In this document: positions 11,693 through 48,641 of the stretch, piece after piece | How positions within the stretch are numbered: position 1 is the first letter of the stretch | Layout of the letters: every line of letters begins with the position of its first letter | DNA from: an uncultured Clostridia bacterium | GTDB lineage: Bacteria; Bacillota; Clostridia; Christensenellales; CAG-917 | Direction of reading: 5' to 3' | Length of the DNA stretch: 64,000 bases | Assembly: GCA_947625145.1 (NCBI GenBank) | Contig: CANQNC010000006.1 | Location: forward strand, 1-64,000 | Made by a program: the position numbers and the translations under genes | Notes under the pieces: generated by a model | Database searches by the model: none | What the model saw: only the letters and a program-made list of their open reading frames with translations | What the model was told of the DNA's origin: nothing

Positions 11693-13174
11693 ATGGCATA
11701 CACATCACTTTATCGCAGATATCGTCCCGACACGTTTGACGGCGTGATCGGGCAGGACCATATCGTACGCACGCTCAAAAATCAGCTTGCGATGGGCAGC
11801 GTGGGGCACGCGTACATTTTCACGGGGACGCGCGGCACGGGCAAGACGTCTGTGGCGAAGATATTTGCGCGCGCGGTCAACTGTTTGCATCCCGTGGACG
11901 GCTCCCCTTGCGGCGAGTGCGAAAACTGCAAGGAGCTGTCGCGGAGCGGCAATTTCGACATTTTGGAGATAGACGCGGCGTCCAACAACTCGGTGGAGCA
12001 GATCAGGGAGCTGACGGACAAGATAGGCTTTCCGCCCACGATAGGCAAATACAAGGTCTACATTGTGGACGAAGTGCACATGTTGTCCACGGCGGCGTTC
12101 AACGCCCTGCTCAAGACGTTGGAAGAGCCTCCGCAGCACGCGATCTTCATACTTGCGACGACGGAGATACACAAGATCCCGTCCACGATACTTTCGCGTT
12201 GTTTGCGGTTTGATTTTCGCCTTGTGCCCGTACAGCAGATTGCGAAGCGACTGCGTTTCATCTTTGACGACATCGGCGTGGCGTATGAGGAAGAGGCGTT
12301 GCAACTGATTGCCTCGGCGGGCGGCGGGAGCGTGCGCGACGCGCTGTCGCTTGCGGACATGTGCGTAAGCTATTGTGACGGCAAGATCACCTACGACGGG
12401 GTGTTGGAGGTGCTTGGCGCGTCCGACCCGAAGAGGCTGAAAAAGCTGGCGGAGGAGATCGCGGACGGCGACGCGGACTCTGCGCTTCGGGACGTGGCGG
12501 AGCTTTGCGACCTTGGCAAGAGCGTTGCGATCTTGGCGCAGGACATCGCCACGCTTTTCCGCAACGTGCTTTATATCAAGCTGTGCAAGGACGCCAAGAC
12601 GATCTTGGGACTTCCCGAGGGGATATACGCGGGGCTAAGCGAGCTTGCGGCGAAATATCCCGCCGAGAGATGCATGGACATTTTGAAGATCATGAGCAAG
12701 CTGGAGGGCGAGTTGCGCTACACCTCACAGCACCGCATACTGTTTGAGGCGGCGGTGGTGCAGGCGAGCCTCGGAGGGGGCAAGCCCTCGTTGGAGGAGC
12801 GCGTCGCGCGGCTTGAGCGAGCGGCGAGTCAGAGGAAATCGGGTTTTAATGCCGCACCTGTCCTTGACGCCAGACAGGTGTGGGTGTATGTGGCGTCCGA
12901 ACTGAACAAGCGCAAATACACCTTGCTTGTCAGCGCGCTGAACGACGCGGGGATGAGCATGACGGACGCTGAGTTTGTGCTCAGCGTGACGGACAGGGGC
13001 ACCGAGCGGCTTTTGGAAGCGCCGGGGGCTATGGAAGCGCTGAGGGCGGCGTTTGCCTCGACCGAGCAGGCGGGCGGGCGGGCGCTTGTGATAAAAAAGG
13101 AATATCAGATCGCGAAGGAGCAGGTGATCCCCGTGCTGAAAGAGCAGCTTGGCGACTTTTTGGAGATAAAGTGA
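11693..13174 (+). CDS. dnaX: DNA polymerase III subunit gamma/tau
   Basis: MAYTSLYRRYRPDTFDGVIGQDHIVRTLKNQL, Walker A GTRGTGKTS, zinc-site CGECENCK, DEVHMLS. Confidence 0.97.
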   Translation: MAYTSLYRRYRPDTFDGVIGQDHIVRTLKNQLAMGSVGHAYIFTGTRGTGKTSVAKIFARAVNCLHPVDGSPCGECENCKELSRSGNFDILEIDAASNNSVEQIRELTDKIGFPPTIGKYKVYIVDEVHMLSTAAFNALLKTLEEPPQHAIFILATTEIHKIPSTILSRCLRFDFRLVPVQQIAKRLRFIFDDIGVAYEEEALQLIASAGGGSVRDALSLADMCVSYCDGKITYDGVLEVLGASDPKRLKKLAEEIADGDADSALRDVAELCDLGKSVAILAQDIATLFRNVLYIKLCKDAKTILGLPEGIYAGLSELAAKYPAERCMDILKIMSKLEGELRYTSQHRILFEAAVVQASLGGGKPSLEERVARLERAASQRKSGFNAAPVLDARQVWVYVASELNKRKYTLLVSALNDAGMSMTDAEFVLSVTDRGTERLLEAPGAMEALRAAFASTEQAGGRALVIKKEYQIAKEQVIPVLKEQLGDFLEIK

Positions 13175-13714
13175 CCAAATTCGACAAAGAGTGACAGAAT
13201 ATTTGCACATGCGACAGCGTAAATCGACATGTATCGACATAACCCGACATGAGGGTGCATAAATCTACACGAATAGGCATAAGCCAACACATGACGACAT
13301 AAAACTACGCGGTGTAAAGGCAAAATCCGCCGAAAAGTGGCAAACAGTGCGAAAAATCGACAACATGTGACAAGATAAGTCAACGTGTGACGGCATAAAT
13401 CGACACGAAGTGGCATAAGCCGACACGAAGCGACGTAAACAGACATGAAGATATGTAAACATACAAAATACGCAAAATATCGACGTAAATCAACGGAAAT
13501 ATGCGTAAAACGACATGAAGTCATCTAATACGACAGAATACGACGGCAAACGGCATGTCGCGACAATGTATGACATAATATGACATAAAACAGTAGGATA
13601 TATCAATATATAACAAAATATAGCGGCATATATCAAAACAAATCAAAATACAACTTAAATCGTCAAAAGGCGACTTAAATCGTCAAAAGGCGACTTAAAT
13701 CGTCAAAAGGCGAC
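13175..13714. repeat. 10-bp-period degenerate tandem array, consensus about CGACATAAAT, filling the dnaX-ybaB gap
   Basis: From 13381 to 13714 the units stay in one 10-bp phase with no indel; 30 of 34 units have C at unit position 4. Earlier part (13182-13380) shows CGAC(A/G) in the same spacing with a few phase shifts. Confidence 0.85.
13653..13712. repeat. Three perfect 20-bp tandem copies ACTTAAATCGTCAAAAGGCG
   Basis: Read directly at 13653-13672, 13673-13692, 13693-13712. Confidence 0.98.
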
Positions 13715-13733
13715 AAATCATCAGGAGGTGTGT

Positions 13734-14066
13734 ATGGGACACGGATACGGCGGCTTCGGCGGAGGCGGCAACATGCAACAGGCGCTCAAGCAGGCGCAGG
13801 CGATGCAGAGGCGTTTGCAAGAGGCTCAGCAGAAACTTGCTGAGGAAGAAGTGACGGGCACAGCGGCTGGCGGCATGGTGGAAGTGACGTTGACGGGGGA
13901 CAAATCTCCCGTGGCGGTCAGCATCAAGCCCGAGGCGGTGGATCCCGACGACGTGGAAATGTTGGAGGATCTTGTGCTTGCGGCGCTCAGCGACGCGCTG
14001 AAAAAGGCGGACGACCTTACGCAACAGATCATGGGGACGATGGGCAACCTTGGAGGCATGTTTTAA
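13734..14066 (+). CDS. ybaB: YbaB/EbfC family nucleoid-associated protein
   Basis: [52 protein letters not shown] 5 nt before ATG. Confidence 0.95.
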
Positions 14067-14069
14067 GCT

Positions 14070-14654
14070 ATGAAGTATATCGAGCCGCTTGCAAGGCTTA
14101 TCGCACAACTCAGCAAGTTGCCCTCTGTGGGCGAAAAGACCGCCGCGCGCTATGCCTACGCCATACTCAACGGCTCGGACGAGGACGCGGAGGAGCTTGC
14201 CGACGCGATACGTTGCGTGAAGCGAGAGGTGCATTTTTGCAAGATATGCGGCAATTACACCGAAAACGAGATCTGCGACATATGCGCCGAGCGCAAGGCA
14301 AATGTGATTTGCGTTGTCAAGGAGCCGAAGGACATCATCGCCTTCGAGCGCGTGAAGGACTTCAAGGGGGTCTACCATGTGCTTGGGGGAGTGATATCCC
14401 CGCTTGAGCATATCGGGCCGTCCGACCTTCGCATCAAGCAGTTGCTTGAAAGGCTGGACGGGGTGGAAGAGGTCATCCTCGCCACCAACCCCGACGTGGA
14501 GGGCGAGGCAACGGCAATGTATCTTGCCCGCCTCATCAAGCCGCTTGGCGTGAAGTGCACGCGTATTGCGCGGGGGCTTCCCGAGGGGAGCGTCATCGAG
14601 TACGCGGACGAAAGCACGCTCTCGCGCGCGCTGTCGTCGAGGATAGAGCTGTAA
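14070..14654 (+). CDS. recR: Recombination protein RecR
   Basis: IEPLARLIAQLSKLPSVGEKTAARYA; C4 zinc finger CKICGNYTENEICDIC; TOPRIM VVKEPKDIIAFE. Confidence 0.96.
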   Translation: MKYIEPLARLIAQLSKLPSVGEKTAARYAYAILNGSDEDAEELADAIRCVKREVHFCKICGNYTENEICDICAERKANVICVVKEPKDIIAFERVKDFKGVYHVLGGVISPLEHIGPSDLRIKQLLERLDGVEEVILATNPDVEGEATAMYLARLIKPLGVKCTRIARGLPEGSVIEYADESTLSRALSSRIEL

Positions 14655-14666
14655 AAACAGAGCCGT

Positions 14667-14851
14667 AAACAGCGGGGCTTTCGAGACGTTGGCACGAAGC
14701 GTTCCAACAAAGCGGAGTCCCCGAAGCGAGGCCTCTAAAGCGTATTCCAAGGCGTTTGCACGAAAAGGAGTTTCCGAAGCGTTTTTTCGAGGCGTTCCCG
14801 CGAAGAAAGGCTTCCGAGGCGTATTTCAAGGCGTTTGCACGAGCGTATTCG
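14667..14851. repeat. Degenerate tandem repeat, about 40-bp units ((G/A)A(A/G)GCGT..TTCC/AAGGCGTTTGCACGA)
   Basis: Units 14737-14775, 14776-14815, 14816-14851, plus weaker upstream copies. Confidence 0.6.
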
Positions 14852-14856
14852 TTTTA

Positions 14857-14866
14857 CCCCCCCCCC
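14857..14866. repeat. C10 homopolymer tract upstream of giant surface-protein gene
   Basis: ACCCCCCCCCCG read directly. Confidence 0.95.
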
Positions 14867-14913
14867 GTATTTCTTAAGATTTCTTTAGAAACCGAATTGT
14901 TTTTGCAATTCGT

Positions 14914-14942
14914 TTGCATTTGCCAAATTTTGAAGATACTAT
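14914..14942 (+). promoter_or_regulatory. Putative promoter TTGCAT-17-TACTAT of the surface-protein gene
   Basis: Hexamers at 14914-14919 and 14937-14942. Confidence 0.5.
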
Positions 14943-14946
14943 AAAG

Positions 14947-14973
14947 GTTGATGACGGCGCTCATCAACTTTTT
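14947..14973 (+). terminator. Terminator-like hairpin GTTGATGA-CGGCGC-TCATCAAC-TTTTT at the predicted transcript start
   Basis: Perfect 8-bp stem, 6-nt loop, T5. Confidence 0.6.
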
Positions 14974-15070
14974 GCATGCAGGCGAAAACCGCGGCAAAAT
15001 GTTGGCTTCGTCACGGATATTGCGCAACATATCGCGCAAAATAGTTTTTGAAAAGAGAGGAGTCTTTTTT

Positions 15071-18000
15071 ATGAAAACGTTGAAAAGCAGGGCAATCATT
15101 GCGATCTTCGCGGCGGTCATCCTTGCGTTGTCGCTTGCGGCGGCGCTTAGGACAGACGGAGTGTCCTTTGCGGCGACCACGTACACCGACAACGAGCAAT
15201 CCAACGGCTTGGTTGTGGGCACGTCGGAGGGCGAGACTGACAATGCGTCGGGCAAGCTGTGGGTGGTTGAGGACACCACCGACGACAAACAGAAAAAATA
15301 TGTCGCGCAGAAAAACAGCAAAACGACTCCGTCTCTTAAATTTACAATTGAAGGAGAAAAGTATTTTTCTTTTGAATATTTGATAACTTACACAAGAGAC
15401 ACTTATGCGTATTTTACGGTAGATATCGACAACGTACAGTGTTGCAAAGTAAATTATAAAGGTGCAGATACAACTCCGCAGGAGTATATAATGAAAACCC
15501 ACGGAGATGGGCAACATACTATTGTAGTGTGGGCAAACGGGGCAAAAAATGAAACCGACAGATATCTATGTGACATATATTTTCAAAATTTCCGCCTGCG
15601 CGAGGATAATGATTTTACAAAGCACAACCTTAAAATGGATTACAATGATAAGGTTTTGGCGACATACGTTGTAGAGGGCGGAAACGGCGGTTGGAACGGG
15701 GATAAAGACACCGAAGAGCAAATCAAAGCGGCGGCGACCTATCTTACCCCCAATCAAGAATATCCTCTTCCCGAAGGTATTTCTTTTTGCTTTATTTCAT
15801 TTCCCAAAGCTTACGTTTCATCCATAAGCGGGGAAGAAGTCAAATCCCCTATATTATCGAAGCACATTCAATCTGCCGACGGGAAGAAGCAACTGTCAAG
15901 TTACGGCGGAGCCGCCGAAGTTTACGTGACAGGTTGTAAAATCACCAACACGGGAATAAGGCAAGCACAAAATGACCATGCCAATACAGGCTCTATTTTT
16001 TGGCAATGCGCCGGTTATGATTTAAAAGATATCACCTGCGAATATGCGCCAACGCCGAAAGTGTTTTATGTGGAAAACGGAAATGAGGACGACCAACATT
16101 TGTTGGAATACAACCAAACAGTTGCCCTTCCGTATGGGAAATTCTCCCTCCCCATCCGCATAAAGACTGTGCTCGAGGATTATCAAAACTACTACCAAGT
16201 CAAAGTGGACGGAGTTGCCGCGGACGTGACATGGAAAAAAATGGGGGATACAATCGGCACTTCCGTGGAAGTGAAACAAAGCTGTACGGTCACGGTGTCG
16301 GGCTGGTTTGGAGCAGAGTATAGTTATACGAAAAGCAATTCTTCTTCCAACGAATTGGGCACGGCATATCTATTATCTAACGGGGAACCTAATGAATCGA
16401 CAATAGAGAAAGAATTGTCCTTTTCATTCAACATTGACTTAGAAACAGAACATGGCTTGAGAGACGTGCTTGCAAGCGCGGACGCGGACATAGAAGTCAT
16501 TCAGGACGCAACCTATGCTTGGTATCACGATCAGGACAGAAGCGGAGAGGGCGGCATGGCGTTCACCTCGGGCATTTCGGGAGCGCGCGCGGTCAAACAA
16601 AAGATCTCGCAACTCGGGTTTACCGTCAAAGGCAACGGCGTGTTGATCTTCGACTTCCAAATCGACGGGGTAGGAACGAGCACCGGCACAAAAAACAGTT
16701 GGGCGGCGTACAATGTAGGCACACAGGTGGCGGCTTCAAGTTGGGCTTCCAGCACATTAAGTAGTGGTCAAAAAAAAGACTTTCACGCCTATTATGGTTT
16801 CAACAAAGCGAAAGCAACAAACATTGCATTCGGTTTGTCCGCCAACAATCAGCATAATCATGCCGGTGAAGTCAATAAGGAGTGGATAGATGCGGCATAT
16901 GCAGCGCAAAATGCAAAATATAAGATGCCGGAATACTTTAGTGTTCCGGAGGAATACTTTAGTGCTACCACCACTGTCACACCCTCCCTGAATTACACAA
17001 TACAAGAGACGACGGATTCCGAGTGGTATCGCTGTTCCATAACCTTCAACGACAAAGAGGACGCGGAGGAGACCACCATATATATCGCGCATGCGGTTTA
17101 CGCCGTTTCAACAGGATATACACCTGCGAACGGCTTCGGCGGGGAGCGCATGACCATCCGCAACGTCGGCTATTATCCTTCCGAAACCAACGTCAAATTT
17201 TCCATGACGGACCAAGAGGGGACGGATACAAGCGCGGGCGGTTCGGTCTCGGTCACCGCGGACGGCAAGGAGATATCTTTGCAAGAGGACGGCACTCCGA
17301 AGCTCGACACTCCCATAGCGCGAGGCGCGCGCGTGACGCTCAAAGCAAATTTGAGTTCGGACTATTTCTGCTATGGCTGGCAGGAGATAATCGACGGGAA
17401 GAAGAGGATATTTGCCTACGGCGATACGGCGACCTATTCCGTGCAGTCGAAAGAGGTGCAGATTGTCGCCATTGTCGCAAAGCAGGGAACCTACGCCGTG
17501 CGCCACAACGACGTGTTCTACAAAACGGCGGACATTCAACAAGCTCTGGACGCCGCGGAGATCGGCGAGGACAAAAACGTCATTGCGGTGGACAACGTAA
17601 CAGTGAAGACGGCTCTGAAGGTCCCCAAAGGGGTCAACTTCGTCATACCTTACAACCTCAAAGGCGGTTGGACGGAAGAGGGCACAAACAAGACGGCGGG
17701 AAGTCGCGTTTCTTGGGCAAGCGGCTCCTACAAACAGCCCGTCTACAAGTTCGGCATAGAGGGCGTTTCAGTCACCGTCGAAGGCAACTTCTATGTGGGC
17801 GGCGTAATACACTATCCCGATCAATCCGCGCAAGGGCATACCTCGGGCGCGTACTCCGAATTTGTCAACGACGGCACAGTCACAGTCGCAAAGGGCGGCT
17901 TGATGGACGTGTACGGCAGGGTCACGGGCACAGGCTCCATAGACGTAAAGTCGGGCGGAAAGCTGACGCAACCGTTTTTGATCTGCGACTATGCGGGCGG

Positions 18001-21000
18001 CAACAACACGCAGGATCTGTTCAATCTGACTCCGTCCCAAACTCCGTTCAGGCGCTACGCCATGGTCAACATCCAATGCGCGGGCGGCTACACCATCGAG
18101 TACGGCGGCGAGCTGTTCGGCCACGCAAGCCTCTATTTCTGGAGCAGTATCCACACGCTCGATCAACCCTTCATCAGCTATGTGGGCAGTGTGGACGGCA
18201 AGTCGGGCACCACAACTTTGATCAACTTGAAGTCGGGCGCAAACGCGCATGTCGTCTATGACGATAAGCATCTCCGTCCCGCAGGCGGAAGCAACACCGA
18301 GGACGTGGGCAAAACCACCGTCACGGTCACGGGCGGCGCGACCGCGGGATATATGAACTTCGACCTCGGCATCAACACAAGCAAAGTCGCGTTCTCCATC
18401 CCCTACAACTACGAGCTTGTCCTCGCGGGCAACAAGGCGCAATATGAGATGAATTACGCCTACAAGCTGATGCCCGGCGCCACATTCAAAGTCGCCGAGG
18501 GCGCAACCTTGACCTTGAACGCGGACTTCTATGTGTACGACGGCCTCGTGCAGTCCGCAATGAGCGGCAAGAGCTATCCCACAGCGGATCAACTTCATGA
18601 CGCAAAATATCCCACAAACGCAAACTTCATCGTGGACGGCACGCTGAAGATCACAAATCACAAATTCTTGGGCGCGATCCAGACCTCGGGCGCTTCGGGC
18701 AGAATTGAGGTCGCTTCGGGCGCGACCCTTTCGGGCGACATCGTGGACGGCGGCTTGACGGGCTACGATTGCAACTACGCCACATTCTCAACTTCCGCAA
18801 GGGTCTACGGCGACGGCAAGATCGTTGCCATACAAGCGGGCAAAAACTACGTCGCAAAGGGCGGCGCGGCTTGGACCTTGCCCTCTGTGGAAGTTTCCTA
18901 CGAACAGACAAACGGCGCCTCGCACAAGGGCAAAGGCCACAACCTCGCAACCGCAAATACGCTTGAAGCCGACGTCGTCGGACAGTGGATGCTCGAGCAC
19001 GCTTCGCACTCCTACGTGTGGACGTTGACGGACGGGCAAAAGCCGTCCAAGGATCACCCCGTCGCAAGCGCTACGCTCGAATGTACGGTGTTCGGCTGCG
19101 ACCACTCTCAAGAGTTCAAGGTTCTGTTCGTCACGGACGTCCTCGGCAAATTGCAGTTCGAGGGCAAGGCGTTTGACCCAAGTCGGCTTGTCGGGGAAGG
19201 CTCCCTCGCCTACGCCATGTTCGCAGGCGTCGAGCTTAGCGCGGAGTTTGTGCAGGCAAACGGCGACGCTTTTGTCGGCGAGGTCAAGGACATCGCGGAC
19301 TACTTCGTCAAATTGTCGGGCGAAAACGTGCTGTTCTATGCCTCGGGCGACGCTCCCGTGATGGAGGGCGATCAACCCGCAAACAGCCATATCTTCGGCT
19401 TCAGCGTGTCAAAACGCGAGGTCAAAGTGCGCCTCTTGCCTCAATCGCAGGTCTACAGCGGCGCGGAAGCCGTCGTATCAAGCGCGCAGGGCACGGGCTT
19501 CGAGATCACGGACGGCAGCTTCGCGGATGGCTTCGACCCCGGCATAAACGTCAGCTTTGCGGAGGGCGGCGACCATATCAACCACAAGGCGTACGGCCTT
19601 ACGGCGGATTGGTCTGACAAAGATCACTACGACATCCAAATCGACCAAAACGGCGCAACGCTTTCTGTCACTCAGCGCCGGATCACTGTCAAGATACTCA
19701 ACAAATCAAAGGAATACGACGGCACGACCGTGGTCACGGGCAGCGCAAAGGACGTCGACTTCAGTGTCATCGGCGAGCTGTGCGCGGTGGACCCCGCAAT
19801 AAGGCTGTCTGTCGAGGCGGCGGACAAAAACGCAAAAACGTACCATATCGTGGGCGATTGGGACAACAAAAACTACGGCGTCTCCTTCCAAGGCGAAAGC
19901 GGCGAGGATACATTCGGCTTGTACGAAGTTTCGCCCGCAAAACTGACAGTCACCTTCAAAAAGAGCGCGCTCAGCCGCGTGTATGACGGCGCGGTTGTGA
20001 CCTCTCTCACGTTCAAGCCGCAACAAGACTATACGCTGTCAAGGGCGCTGTTCGATCAAGACGCGCTCACTGTGTCCGCCACTGTCCAAAACGCCAAAAA
20101 CGTCGGAGACTATGTGCTGACCGCAAGCGGCGACAACGCAAACTACGAGCTTGCGTTCGAGGTCGAGGAAGAGGGCGAACTGCAACTCTCCATCTCTCGG
20201 CGCCCCATCACGGTCACCGCAGAGGACAAAAACTCCGCATACGGCGAGGACCTCCAACCCTTGACCCTCAAAATAGACGGCGCGGTCGCAAGCGAGCTCG
20301 AACAGCTCAAAGCGCAGTTCGAACTCTCCACGGACGCCGCTTCGGACAAGGAACCCTCAAAATACACCATCTACGTCAAGACAAAACAGGACGCGGATAT
20401 GGCGCTTCTCGGCAACTATCAGGTCACTCCCGTAAACGGCGAATACACCTTGAATTACGCCGAATTTGCGGGCATCAAGTTCGATTCCGACGAGGTCACA
20501 TACGACGCGCAACAACACAGCGTCGCGGTCAGCGGACAGCCCGAAGACTCAAAGGTGACCTACTCCTACGACGGACAACAACAGGGAACTCCCTTCTTGT
20601 TCACGCAAAAAGGGCTGTACAGGATCTCCGTCACAGTCACGCACGAGGGCTTCGAGCATCCCTTCACGGCGGAAGCCACGCTGGAAATCAAAGCCGCAAA
20701 GCTGACCTTGACGATCAAAAACACGGGCAAGATATATGACGGCGCCGCACCCTCCGTCCTCGCAAAAAAGGACGAAAGTTGGAGCGTAAAACAGGGCACG
20801 CTGTATCCAAACGACGACCTCGGGGTCACCCTCACAGTGGATGGCGCCGCTTCGGCGGGGACATATCAGATCACGGGCAGTTGGGACAACCAAAACTACG
20901 ACGTCACCTTCCAAAGCGAGGACGGCGAAAAGGTTTACGGCGAGTATACCATCAGCCCGCGCCCGCTTAAGATCACAGTCAAAAATCAATCCAAGGTCTA

Positions 21001-22399
21001 CGACGGCGACGCGCCCGTCCCCTCAAACGCGTCGTGGGAAGTCAAGGACGGCCAAATCGCAGATGCGGACAAGCAGTCCTTCTCTCTGACCATCAGGCTC
21101 TTGCAGGCAAGCGCAGAGGCGAACGACTACAACATGATTGCGCAAGCCACCGAACTTGAAAATCGCAACTACGCCATCACTTTCGTCAACGAAAAGGGCG
21201 AAACTATGGACGAAAACGGCGCCTACGCCGTGTTCTCGGTGCAAAAACGCGCGATAACTGTCACCATCAAAAACAAGTCGAGAGTGTACAACGGCAATGT
21301 CGCCTCCGTTGACAGCGTGAAGGACGCGGATTATGTCGTCGTCGGCGATCTGTGCAAGGTCGCGCCCGATATCAGACTGTCTGTCGAGGCGGCGGACAAA
21401 AACGTCAACACCTACCATATCACGGGCGATTGGGACAACAAAAACTACGACGTCACCTTTCAAAGCGAGGACGGCGAAAAAACATACGGCGAGTTTGAGA
21501 TCACCGCGGTGAATGTCGTGGTGCAGATCCTCAACAAACAAAAGCTCTACGACGGAGACCCCGTAAGCGTGACAAGCCTCGAAAATTCGGATTGGCGGCG
21601 CGCGTCGGGCGACCTCGTTGGGCAGGATACGCTTGGCGTAATACTGTCCGTCGCGGCGGAAAGCAATGTCGGCGAATATCGCATCACGGGCGATTGGACC
21701 AACAAAAACTACGCCGTCACCTTCAAGGGCGAGGACAGCGACAACAATTACGCAATTTTCAAAGTCTCGGTGCGCGACATATCCGACGAGCTCGCGCTGT
21801 CCGTGGGCGGAGCGACTGAGCAGGACGGCAGGATAGAAGCCGTGCTGTCGGGCGCAGAACTCGCCCTTGCGGCAACTTCGGGCGATTGGCTCGCCGAGTT
21901 GTCCGTCACAGTGGACGGCGTGGAAACGGCGGCGCTTGACAAACTCGGCGCGTACGTCGTCACTGTCAGCGTCAAGGCAAACGACAACTTGACCGGGCAA
22001 AAAACCTTCGCCGTCACAGTGCGGGATCAAAACGGATACACCTCGCAAAGGCTTGTCGACGCGCTAGAGGCGCTGAGACTGATCGACATCTCGGAGGTCG
22101 ACGTGTCCAACTTCAAGGCGGAGGACTTCGAGATCCTGCAGGCGATCGCGGACGCCACCGCCGAACTCACGCAAGAGGATCTGGCTCAGCTCGACGGCGA
22201 GGGCCACGAGGACGACAAAAAACTTTATCAAAATATGATGGCGCTTGTTGAAAGCTACAACGCTATCCTCAGCGGCGCGGACGGCGTGATCGAAGTCGCA
22301 AAAGAGATTGCAAACGCACCCATCAAGGCGCTGTTTGAACTGCTCGCCGCCGCGGCTTCGCTGATCGCGCTCGCATTTGTGGGAGGGAAGAGAATATGA
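15071..22399 (+). CDS. Giant secreted surface protein with MBG/YDG-type repeats and C-terminal TM
   Basis: Signal peptide MKTLKSRAIIAIFAAVILALSLAAAL; repeated (K/R)xITVxIxNKSKxYDG...Y.ITGDWDNKNYDVTFQSEDGEK.YGE(Y/F); C-terminal hydrophobic helix then GGKRI; no LPXTG seen. Confidence 0.88.
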   Translation: MKTLKSRAIIAIFAAVILALSLAAALRTDGVSFAATTYTDNEQSNGLVVGTSEGETDNASGKLWVVEDTTDDKQKKYVAQKNSKTTPSLKFTIEGEKYFSFEYLITYTRDTYAYFTVDIDNVQCCKVNYKGADTTPQEYIMKTHGDGQHTIVVWANGAKNETDRYLCDIYFQNFRLREDNDFTKHNLKMDYNDKVLATYVVEGGNGGWNGDKDTEEQIKAAATYLTPNQEYPLPEGISFCFISFPKAYVSSISGEEVKSPILSKHIQSADGKKQLSSYGGAAEVYVTGCKITNTGIRQAQNDHANTGSIFWQCAGYDLKDITCEYAPTPKVFYVENGNEDDQHLLEYNQTVALPYGKFSLPIRIKTVLEDYQNYYQVKVDGVAADVTWKKMGDTIGTSVEVKQSCTVTVSGWFGAEYSYTKSNSSSNELGTAYLLSNGEPNESTIEKELSFSFNIDLETEHGLRDVLASADADIEVIQDATYAWYHDQDRSGEGGMAFTSGISGARAVKQKISQLGFTVKGNGVLIFDFQIDGVGTSTGTKNSWAAYNVGTQVAASSWASSTLSSGQKKDFHAYYGFNKAKATNIAFGLSANNQHNHAGEVNKEWIDAAYAAQNAKYKMPEYFSVPEEYFSATTTVTPSLNYTIQETTDSEWYRCSITFNDKEDAEETTIYIAHAVYAVSTGYTPANGFGGERMTIRNVGYYPSETNVKFSMTDQEGTDTSAGGSVSVTADGKEISLQEDGTPKLDTPIARGARVTLKANLSSDYFCYGWQEIIDGKKRIFAYGDTATYSVQSKEVQIVAIVAKQGTYAVRHNDVFYKTADIQQALDAAEIGEDKNVIAVDNVTVKTALKVPKGVNFVIPYNLKGGWTEEGTNKTAGSRVSWASGSYKQPVYKFGIEGVSVTVEGNFYVGGVIHYPDQSAQGHTSGAYSEFVNDGTVTVAKGGLMDVYGRVTGTGSIDVKSGGKLTQPFLICDYAGGNNTQDLFNLTPSQTPFRRYAMVNIQCAGGYTIEYGGELFGHASLYFWSSIHTLDQPFISYVGSVDGKSGTTTLINLKSGANAHVVYDDKHLRPAGGSNTEDVGKTTVTVTGGATAGYMNFDLGINTSKVAFSIPYNYELVLAGNKAQYEMNYAYKLMPGATFKVAEGATLTLNADFYVYDGLVQSAMSGKSYPTADQLHDAKYPTNANFIVDGTLKITNHKFLGAIQTSGASGRIEVASGATLSGDIVDGGLTGYDCNYATFSTSARVYGDGKIVAIQAGKNYVAKGGAAWTLPSVEVSYEQTNGASHKGKGHNLATANTLEADVVGQWMLEHASHSYVWTLTDGQKPSKDHPVASATLECTVFGCDHSQEFKVLFVTDVLGKLQFEGKAFDPSRLVGEGSLAYAMFAGVELSAEFVQANGDAFVGEVKDIADYFVKLSGENVLFYASGDAPVMEGDQPANSHIFGFSVSKREVKVRLLPQSQVYSGAEAVVSSAQGTGFEITDGSFADGFDPGINVSFAEGGDHINHKAYGLTADWSDKDHYDIQIDQNGATLSVTQRRITVKILNKSKEYDGTTVVTGSAKDVDFSVIGELCAVDPAIRLSVEAADKNAKTYHIVGDWDNKNYGVSFQGESGEDTFGLYEVSPAKLTVTFKKSALSRVYDGAVVTSLTFKPQQDYTLSRALFDQDALTVSATVQNAKNVGDYVLTASGDNANYELAFEVEEEGELQLSISRRPITVTAEDKNSAYGEDLQPLTLKIDGAVASELEQLKAQFELSTDAASDKEPSKYTIYVKTKQDADMALLGNYQVTPVNGEYTLNYAEFAGIKFDSDEVTYDAQQHSVAVSGQPEDSKVTYSYDGQQQGTPFLFTQKGLYRISVTVTHEGFEHPFTAEATLEIKAAKLTLTIKNTGKIYDGAAPSVLAKKDESWSVKQGTLYPNDDLGVTLTVDGAASAGTYQITGSWDNQNYDVTFQSEDGEKVYGEYTISPRPLKITVKNQSKVYDGDAPVPSNASWEVKDGQIADADKQSFSLTIRLLQASAEANDYNMIAQATELENRNYAITFVNEKGETMDENGAYAVFSVQKRAITVTIKNKSRVYNGNVASVDSVKDADYVVVGDLCKVAPDIRLSVEAADKNVNTYHITGDWDNKNYDVTFQSEDGEKTYGEFEITAVNVVVQILNKQKLYDGDPVSVTSLENSDWRRASGDLVGQDTLGVILSVAAESNVGEYRITGDWTNKNYAVTFKGEDSDNNYAIFKVSVRDISDELALSVGGATEQDGRIEAVLSGAELALAATSGDWLAELSVTVDGVETAALDKLGAYVVTVSVKANDNLTGQKTFAVTVRDQNGYTSQRLVDALEALRLIDISEVDVSNFKAEDFEILQAIADATAELTQEDLAQLDGEGHEDDKKLYQNMMALVESYNAILSGADGVIEVAKEIANAPIKALFELLAAAASLIALAFVGGKRI
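19676..21500 (+). repeat. Intragenic DNA-level repeats encoding MBG/YDG modules
   Basis: CTGTCTGTCGAGGCGGCGGACAAAAACG and GATTGGGACAACAAAAACTACG recur near 19805 and 21376; ACTACGACGTCACCTT(C/T)CAAAGCGAGGACGGCGAAAA near 20895 and 21446. Confidence 0.8.
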
Positions 22400-26270: not shown

Positions 26271-26284
26271 GCTGTTGCCATCGG

Positions 26285-26400
26285 GTTTTCGGAAAGATCG
26301 TCAAGTTGTTTTCGGAAATACCGCCGAATCGCTCTCGGAAAGACTGTCGATTTTTTCGGAAAGGCTGTCAAATCGCTCTTTGAATTGCTTTCGGAAACTC
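26285..26400. repeat. Degenerate tandem repeat, about 21-23-bp units (TTTTCGGAAAGACTGTCAAATCGC)
   Basis: TCGGAAA at 26289, 26312, 26335, 26356, 26391 with degenerate TTTGAA between the last two. Confidence 0.65.
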
Positions 26401-26412
26401 CGCTTTGAAAAA

Positions 26413-28881: not shown

Positions 28882-28990
28882 CTCTTCCTCTTCAATGTTT
28901 CTAAGATATTATAATAGTCGATTCGTTTTATTGCAAGGAAAAATTCAAAATTGTTGCGCCGCGCGACCTGTCGGGACATTCCTCCGCATG

Positions 28991-29086
28991 TGCGGAGCGC
29001 ACAAAAAGTCGGCGCTTTGGAGTTTTTTCGATTGCGTATGCGGAGAGGACAAAAAATCGGCGTTTATGCGTTTTTTCGTTTGCACA
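28991..29086. repeat. 48-bp tandem duplication (2 diverged copies)
   Basis: TGCGGAGCGCACAAAAAGTCGGCG... (28991-29038) and TGCGGAGAGGACAAAAAATCGGCG... (29039-29086). Confidence 0.8.
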
Positions 29087-29283
29087 TGAGGCGCGAAAAT
29101 TTTATAGAAATTGCAAACTTTTGAGGAGACGGAGCAGTTCGGGCAAAACGGAAAAGCAGGATTTTAGGCGCGAGATATTCGATATAAACCTCCCAAACGC
29201 TTGCGCGGAGCAAGGAAAAGCCGTTCTAAGTTTTATTGTCTTTTTCGTTTGCGCTTGTTTTTTGTTTTTGCGGAGCAAAAAAA

Positions 29284-29320
29284 AGCGGGCTCTTAGGGGA
29301 AGAGCCCGCGAAAGGAGACA
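29284..29320 (-). terminator. Intrinsic terminator downstream of DUF362 gene
   Basis: GCGGGCTCTTAGGGGAAGAGCCCGC with T8 on minus strand. Confidence 0.8.
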
Positions 29321-29468
29321 AATTTGCGCTAAACTAAATTTATGATTATATACTCATAATATTACTCCTATATTGATCTGAAATAACATGTCTATATCAT
29401 GCCAATCGTTACGCTGATATTACGCCGATATCATGCCGATCGCATATAAGTTTCTTGTCGATTTTGAG

Positions 29469-46407: not shown

Positions 46408-47325
46408 ATGAACGAAGCGATCAGCGTAAAAGGACTTAAAAAATCATACGGCGACGTGGAGGCCGTAAAAGGCATAGACTTCCTTGTGGAAGAGGGGAGT
46501 CTGTTCGCCTTTTTGGGGGAAAACGGCGCGGGCAAATCCACCACGATCAACATACTTTGCACTCTGTTGCCCATGGACGAGGGCGAGGTGAAAATTTGCG
46601 GCTTCGACTTGAAAAGCCGACCCGACGAGGTACGCAAGCGCATAGGCGTGGTGTTTCAAGGTTCGGTTTTGGACAAGAGGCTGAGCGTGAAGGAAAACCT
46701 GTCCACAAGGGCGGCGTTTTACGGACTTCGCGGGGACGCCAAAAAGAAGAGGCTGTCCGAGCTTTGCGAGTTCCTCGGCCTCGGGGACTTCTTCAACAGG
46801 GCTTACGGAAAGCTCAGCGGCGGACAGCGCAGAAGAGCGGACGTCGCAAGGGGATTGCTCAACGACCCGCGCGTGCTCTTTTTGGACGAGCCTACGACGG
46901 GGCTGGATCCGCAAACGCGCAGGACTGTCTGGGGGCTTATCCACAAACTTCGCAAGGAGACGGGGCTGACAGTCTTTCTCACCACGCACTATATGGAAGA
47001 GGCGGAGGACGCGGACAGAGTGGTCATCCTCGACGAGGGCGCTATCGTCGCGGAGGGCACGCCCGTGCAACTCAAAAACGAGTACAGCTCGGACTTCATA
47101 CGCGTGCATGCCGAGCGCTCCGCCGATTTGGACGCGCGGTTTGAGCGCTACGGTTTCGAGTACGTCTCGGGCTTTTACAAACTTCCCGTTCGGGACGCGG
47201 ACGCGGCGAAAAAATTCGTCTTTGACAACGGGGATGTCTTGCGCGATTTCGAGATCGTCAAGGGAAATATGGACGACGTGTTTTTGTCCGTTACGGGCAA
47301 GAGGATATCGGGAGGGGAAAGATGA
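46408..47325 (+). CDS. ABC transporter ATP-binding protein (DrrA-like)
   Basis: GENGAGKSTTINIL, LSGGQRRRADVARGL, VLFLDEPTTGLDPQTR. Confidence 0.94.
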   Translation: MNEAISVKGLKKSYGDVEAVKGIDFLVEEGSLFAFLGENGAGKSTTINILCTLLPMDEGEVKICGFDLKSRPDEVRKRIGVVFQGSVLDKRLSVKENLSTRAAFYGLRGDAKKKRLSELCEFLGLGDFFNRAYGKLSGGQRRRADVARGLLNDPRVLFLDEPTTGLDPQTRRTVWGLIHKLRKETGLTVFLTTHYMEEAEDADRVVILDEGAIVAEGTPVQLKNEYSSDFIRVHAERSADLDARFERYGFEYVSGFYKLPVRDADAAKKFVFDNGDVLRDFEIVKGNMDDVFLSVTGKRISGGER

Positions 47326-48287: not shown

Positions 48288-48312
48288 CTCACTGTTCCGA
48301 TTTGCCTATTCT

Positions 48313-48445
48313 AATATCATGATTTTGTCTGTTTTTATATCGCGATTTGCAAATCCGAATTTTCGGATTTGTCAATTCGTATATCGCAATTTGTCAATTC
48401 TTATATTGAGATATGTCAATTCTCATCTTGCGATTTTTCAATAGG
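48313..48445. repeat. 22-bp tandem array (consensus TATATCGCAATTTGTCAATTCT), about 6 units
   Basis: Unit starts at 48314, 48336, 48358, 48380, 48402, 48424 at exactly 22-bp intervals. Confidence 0.75.
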
Positions 48446-48510
48446 TGTTCAAAACTTTTGCAAACTTATTTTTTGTTTCCCGCACTTTTTTGTTTTATGA
48501 GTTGTTCCCG

Positions 48511-48559
48511 CCCGTTTCGAGCGCAAAGATCAAAGGCTAGTCAACCTTACAAGCCTATT
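48511..48559 (-). repeat. 49-bp dispersed hairpin/terminator-like element, copy 2
   Basis: CCCGTTTCGAGCGCAAAGATCAAAGGCTAGTCAACCTTACAAGCCTATT. Confidence 0.7.
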
Positions 48560-48570
48560 GCATGACGACA

Positions 48571-48594
48571 ATTCGATATTCTATTCGATATTCT
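48571..48594. repeat. Perfect 12-bp tandem duplication ATTCGATATTCT
   Basis: Read directly. Confidence 0.95.
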
Positions 48595-48641
48595 ATGCGA
48601 GAGCAACATTCGGCGCGAGAGCAAAAGGCAAGCCCGCGTCT

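Follow-up and report, generated by a model that had tools for sequence, protein, structure and literature searches.

What fills the unusually long gap between dnaX and ybaB in this uncultured Clostridia bacterium, and how did it come to be there? In the window, as we call the whole 64-kb stretch of DNA that was analysed, 559 bp separate the dnaX stop codon (TGA, 13172-13174) from the ybaB start codon (ATG, 13734), and a degenerate tandem array fills them. Autocorrelation of positions 13175-13714 gave an identity of 0.491 at lag 10 (z 10.4), 0.569 at lag 20 (z 13.8) and 0.516 at lag 40 (z 11.6), compared with a mean of 0.29 in 500 dinucleotide shuffles, and the series continued at lags 30-60. 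This bears out the central claim of an earlier note, made from the letters of this DNA, that a degenerate noncoding 10-bp array occupies the gap. The units lie head to tail at a level above chance, outside coding sequence between the dnaX stop and the ybaB start, and are confined to one locus: in its own genome the array DNA matches only itself, with no second copy and no dispersed family. We judge it a genuine intergenic minisatellite, degenerate, restricted to this species and of a kind already known. We consider it likely that it is specific to this lineage and grew locally by tandem duplication and mutation, probably without a selected function.

The internal structure of the array is more complex than a simple 10-bp repeat. 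Identity was higher at lags 20 and 40 than at lags 10 and 30, and therefore the usual copied unit is a 20-bp block of two ten-mers; the array is made largely of such 20-bp dimers. The Fourier spectrum did not contain the lone sharp 10-bp line that had been expected: its strongest powers fell at 5.0, 2.5 and 10.4 bp (top power 4.8, compared with a shuffled maximum of 3.9), and autocorrelation, rather than the Fourier analysis, is the decisive test of periodicity here. In the first part of the array the register drifts, the unit start modulo 10 going through 2, 5, 8 and 1 via about six 11-bp spacings; from ~13371 to 13714 there are no indels and the register is constant, in agreement with the indel-free stretch previously described for 13381-13714. 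A recount of C at unit position 4 in that stretch gave the same 30 of 34 ten-mers. The array had been thought to begin at the dnaX stop, whereas phase tracking placed its periodicity already inside dnaX, in phase with the last codons (GGAGATAAAG TGACCAAATT) from 13162. The features of the locus are collected in Table 1, together with other arrays discussed below.

Table 1. Features of the dnaX-ybaB-recR locus and other tandem arrays (positions are those of the window unless a locus is named)
Feature	Position	Strand	Evidence or remark
dnaX, DNA polymerase III gamma/tau subunit, 493 aa	11693..13174	+	Pfam DNA_pol3_delta2 E 1e-44, DNAX_ATPase_lid, DNA_pol3_gamma3
Last 13 nt of dnaX (GGAGATAAAGTGA), probable descendant of founder unit	13162..13174	+	Phase tracking; array-profile rank 5 of 2181 positions
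Older array part	13175..13380	+	Diverged 10-mers; register shifts via ~six 11-bp spacings
Fixed-register array part	13381..13652	+	CGACATAAAT-like 10-mers; 30/34 units counted to 13714 have C at position 4
Youngest array part	13653..13714	+	3.1 exact copies of 20-bp dimer ACTTAAATCGTCAAAAGGCG; Tandem Repeats Finder, 100% match
Shine-Dalgarno-like region of ybaB, AGGAGGT within ATCAGGAGGTGTGTATG	13717..13727 (approximate)	+	Sequence
ybaB/ebfC	13734..14066	+	Pfam YbaB_DNA_bd E 5e-32
recR	14070..14654	+	Pfam Toprim_4, RecR_HhH, RecR_ZnF
Array, 40 bp	14655-14947		
Array, 23/44 bp	26271-26412		
Array, 48 bp plus 11 bp	28882-29468		
Array, 22 bp	48288-48641		
Array, 39 bp	L118:13923-14340		Own genome
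Array, 13/26 bp	L122:6669-6991		Own genome
Array, 14/28 bp	L124:6466-7501		Own genome
Array, 21 bp	L126:10555-11117		Own genome

In congeners with a readable locus, where DnaX and YbaB align well, the dnaX-ybaB gap is 12-75 bp long and free of the array. The gap in this species is about 8 times that of the congeners with the longest gaps, and the impression that it is unusually long for this cluster was correct. A search of 20 genomes of the genus, including this one, returned a single weak 53-bp match (E 0.007) besides the array itself, and in L003, an unplaced relative whose DnaX is 62% identical, the gap measures 136 bp and does not hold the array. Its absence from the gaps of the congeners and of L003 makes an origin on the branch leading to this species the most likely. 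Waves resembling a 10-bp period in the gaps of another genus (L106 and L108) were weighed as homologous proto-arrays and are suggestive at most, as unrelated spacers reach such profile scores in several percent of strand tests. The dnaX-ybaB gap of G022, a genome of another genus (locus L107), is itself filled by an unrelated AT-rich array of ~14/28 bp (L150:15660-16050).

The sequences of relatives also point to a possible source of the unit. A 10-mer profile was learned only from 13381-13714, its register was set by the species' own genome, and the stop-spanning dnaX 20-mers of relatives were scored against it. In three closely related congeners (G016, G004, and G003) this 20-mer, (C/A)GACATAAAATGACAAAA(C/T)A, which encodes D-I-K-stop, ranked first among 6592 positions on both strands, one of the three carrying it as CGACATAAAATGACAAAACA; in G008 it ranked second. 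The dnaX ends of these three congeners outscored all 908 other gene ends tested, and in an alignment the first repeat after the stop in this species falls opposite the end of dnaX and the following spacer of the congeners. The species' own dnaX end is a moderate match only, equalled by 46 of the 908 gene ends. The congeners with good matches all belong to a single clade. Support for placing that clade with this species is weak (58), and two genomes that branch within the grouping, G007 and G010, have no good dnaX-end match. We lean toward the dnaX 3' end as the probable founder of the array, with confidence kept moderate because the matches come from one clade, were noticed before they were tested, and depend on that weak grouping.

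From these features we infer how the array may have grown. A piece of the dnaX 3' end with its adjoining spacer, ancestrally near CGACATAAAATGACAAAACA and consisting of two 10-bp halves, would have been duplicated in tandem by replication slippage or unequal exchange. Further rounds, each copying a single unit or several (10, 20, or 40 bp), would have extended it to ~54 units while point mutations eroded the copies, and the exact 20-bp triplet adjoining ybaB would represent the latest round. The spacer probably stays within a dnaX-ybaB-recR transcription unit, without a selected role of its own. The excess of lags 20 and 40 over lags 10 and 30, like the perfect young triplet, is as expected from duplication of multiunit blocks, and simulated duplication of blocks of one to several units with point mutation and no selection reproduced the identity levels of the array. 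In 17-65% of the runs of such neutral simulations, conservation was as unequal among unit positions as in the array; selection, which might be read from the uneven conservation at unit position 4, is therefore not needed. Awkward for a purely neutral history, which need not give such a stretch, are the 334 bp that contain many substitutions and yet no indel. If this course of events is correct, the case shows how a handful of gene-end bases can give rise to half a kilobase of spacer in a tightly packed replication and repair cluster.

Other spacers of this genome hold arrays as well. We surveyed 464 kb, consisting of the window and 400 kb of sampled stretches, with a simple gene caller and sliding autocorrelation of spacers of at least 100 bp. 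Arrays at z>5.5 were found in 18 of 150 spacers, a few of which may be unrecognised coding sequence, and in none of the matched shuffles; the array-bearing spacers account for 9.8 of 67.7 kb of spacer DNA, and the units of the different arrays are mutually unrelated. In G022, which belongs to the same family, arrays were present in 7 of 35 spacers. Congeners were array-poor, with 0 of 93 spacers in G001, G002, and G010 (Fisher p 1.8e-4), 2 of 116 in six further congeners, and 2 of 209 overall, and none was detected in the sampled spacers of other families. Isolated examples in otherwise array-poor congeners are a nearly perfect 13-bp array (ATTCGCCATACCC) in G018 (L213:16050-18160) and a 40-bp array in G004 (L197:5558-5968). 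Founding by a gene end was not supported as a general rule for arrays, none of 16 3' ends adjoining other arrays being significant.

We tentatively speculate that this species and, independently, G022 might be in an array-growing state, their spacers extended again and again as local sequence is duplicated de novo in tandem, with the dnaX-ybaB array, seeded by the dnaX end, as the clearest case. Were this true, these species would differ from their array-poor sisters by some heritable change in replication or repair. A comparison of MutS1, MutL, RecJ, MutS2, and SbcC found no difference that accounts for the array-rich state. MutS1, MutL, and RecJ are all present in this genome, while SbcC is below the cut-off in every family member tested and so does not discriminate array-rich from array-poor genomes. 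Loss of MutS2 was considered as a cause of array growth and rejected: G022 carries the gene, and in this species a piece of MutS2 is present where a contig ends (C35:4-528). Across this family MutS2 stops near profile position 690-700 of 790 and appears to be without its C-terminal part (the copy in this species is cut by the contig end). That sister species differ in this way, some array-rich and others array-poor, is the more interesting part of this case, and this species and G022, set against the congeners, offer a natural comparison for what controls the birth of bacterial minisatellites.

The period of the array, near one helical turn, and the neighboring gene had led the earlier note to consider phased sites or intrinsic curvature next to ybaB. 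In one such reading, YbaB or another nucleoid protein would use them to autoregulate ybaB-recR. There is precedent in Borrelia, where EbfC binds the 5' untranslated region of its own dnaX-ebfC operon at GTnAC (PMC9879097), and both the preference for C at unit position 4 and the long indel-free stretch could be read in this sense. The mean predicted curvature of the array also exceeded that of 196 of 200 shuffles (4/200 reached it), calculated with a set of wedge parameters and a phased A-tract control that behaved as expected. This curvature is not exceptional, however, as equal curvature is predicted for 13 of the genome's 86 other spacers, and the uneven conservation of unit positions arises neutrally in simulation. 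By simple arithmetic, an exact 10.0-bp period drifts by ~1.6 turns over 33 units relative to a 10.5-bp helix. The other arrays of this genome have nonhelical periods; taken with those of G022, their top lags span 13-56 bp and do not favor multiples of 10.5 (Rayleigh p ~0.8), and the 10-bp period therefore needs no helical explanation. GTnAC occurs 3 times in the array versus 2.3 expected, a count reached by 202 of 500 shuffles, although this is the motif of Borrelia EbfC and may not be that of the YbaB encoded here; YbaB of E. coli and of Haemophilus shows no high-affinity binding to GTnAC, and Caulobacter YbaB binds nonspecifically (PMC9610160). Congeners that keep dnaX next to ybaB have no such array. 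A role for YbaB at the array is unsupported, and we regard regulation through phased sites or curvature as quite unlikely. More generally, the case cautions that a 10-bp period is by itself no evidence for helical phasing. A reading as origin iterons or a DnaA-box array is not supported either: DnaA boxes (TTATNCACA) are absent from the array, the sole box in the window being at 46937.

If the gap is transcribed, it could instead act as a leader or polarity element, a ~560-nt untranslated stretch in which a promoter, terminator, Rho site, or structured RNA sets the expression of ybaB-recR. For either strand, RNA folding was mildly better than that of shuffled sequence (z -2.5 and -2.2) and one weak sigma-70-like site was found (13570-13599, + strand), but promoters and terminators were no more numerous than expected by chance, the + strand of the array had no terminator-like site, and neither an Rfam family at threshold nor inverted repeats of at least 10 bp were detected in it. 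YC dimers were depleted (29 versus 40 expected) and C and G were balanced, unlike in a Rho utilisation site. As the array is, moreover, not conserved, such an element appears unlikely. The genome is a 48-contig draft, and the exact 20-bp triplet might have been miscounted; that the array as a whole is an assembly artefact is nevertheless very improbable. Most units differ from one another and the array can therefore be assembled, it lies in midcontig between genes in the correct order, and degenerate arrays of the same sort, built of other units, are frequent in spacers of this genome and of G022 and nearly absent from other drafts. An origin as a remnant of a coding sequence, mobile element, or CRISPR-like element is scarcely credible. 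A 139-aa open reading frame on the minus strand does overlap the first half of the array, but it is explained by the scarcity of T on the + strand (95 of 540 nt). The array lies outside coding sequence and 10 bp is not a multiple of the codon length, so that the earlier note rightly discounted a protein repeat; DnaX is complete at its C-terminus, which aligns collinearly with those of relatives, and there are no equal spacers, inverted repeats, or second copy.

As a minisatellite, the array resembles the bacterial intergenic minisatellites and variable-number tandem repeat loci used in MLVA typing (PMC2884548), which likewise consist of head-to-tail units of tens of base pairs at single sites in spacers, with young perfect copies next to older ones. 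Those catalogued loci are usually nearly perfect and are scored as variable between strains, whereas most copies here are strongly diverged and the species is represented by one genome. The TAACTGA direct repeats of marine Beggiatoaceae (PMC4679880) are also short, occur across many spacers, and contain stop-codon triplets; there, however, one heptamer with a proposed regulatory role recurs genome-wide, whereas here each array has its own unit. The 10-11-bp A-tract periodicity of prokaryotic genomes (PMC3940949, PMC3372288) shares the near-helical period and the A-rich phases, but it is a statistical spacing of A-tracts, whereas here whole 10- or 20-bp words repeat locally and the other arrays of the genome have other periods.

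Directly after recR stands a second degenerate array (z 6.9), so both long spacers of the dnaX-ybaB-recR cluster hold arrays, with unrelated units. This second spacer also contains a run of ten C (14857-14866); ~205 bp downstream of the run is the likely ATG (15071) for a probably secreted 2,483-aa protein with MBG domains (open reading frame 14948-22399). Runs of at least nine C or G are rare (3 in the 464 kb sampled), which makes this run a candidate phase-variation tract.
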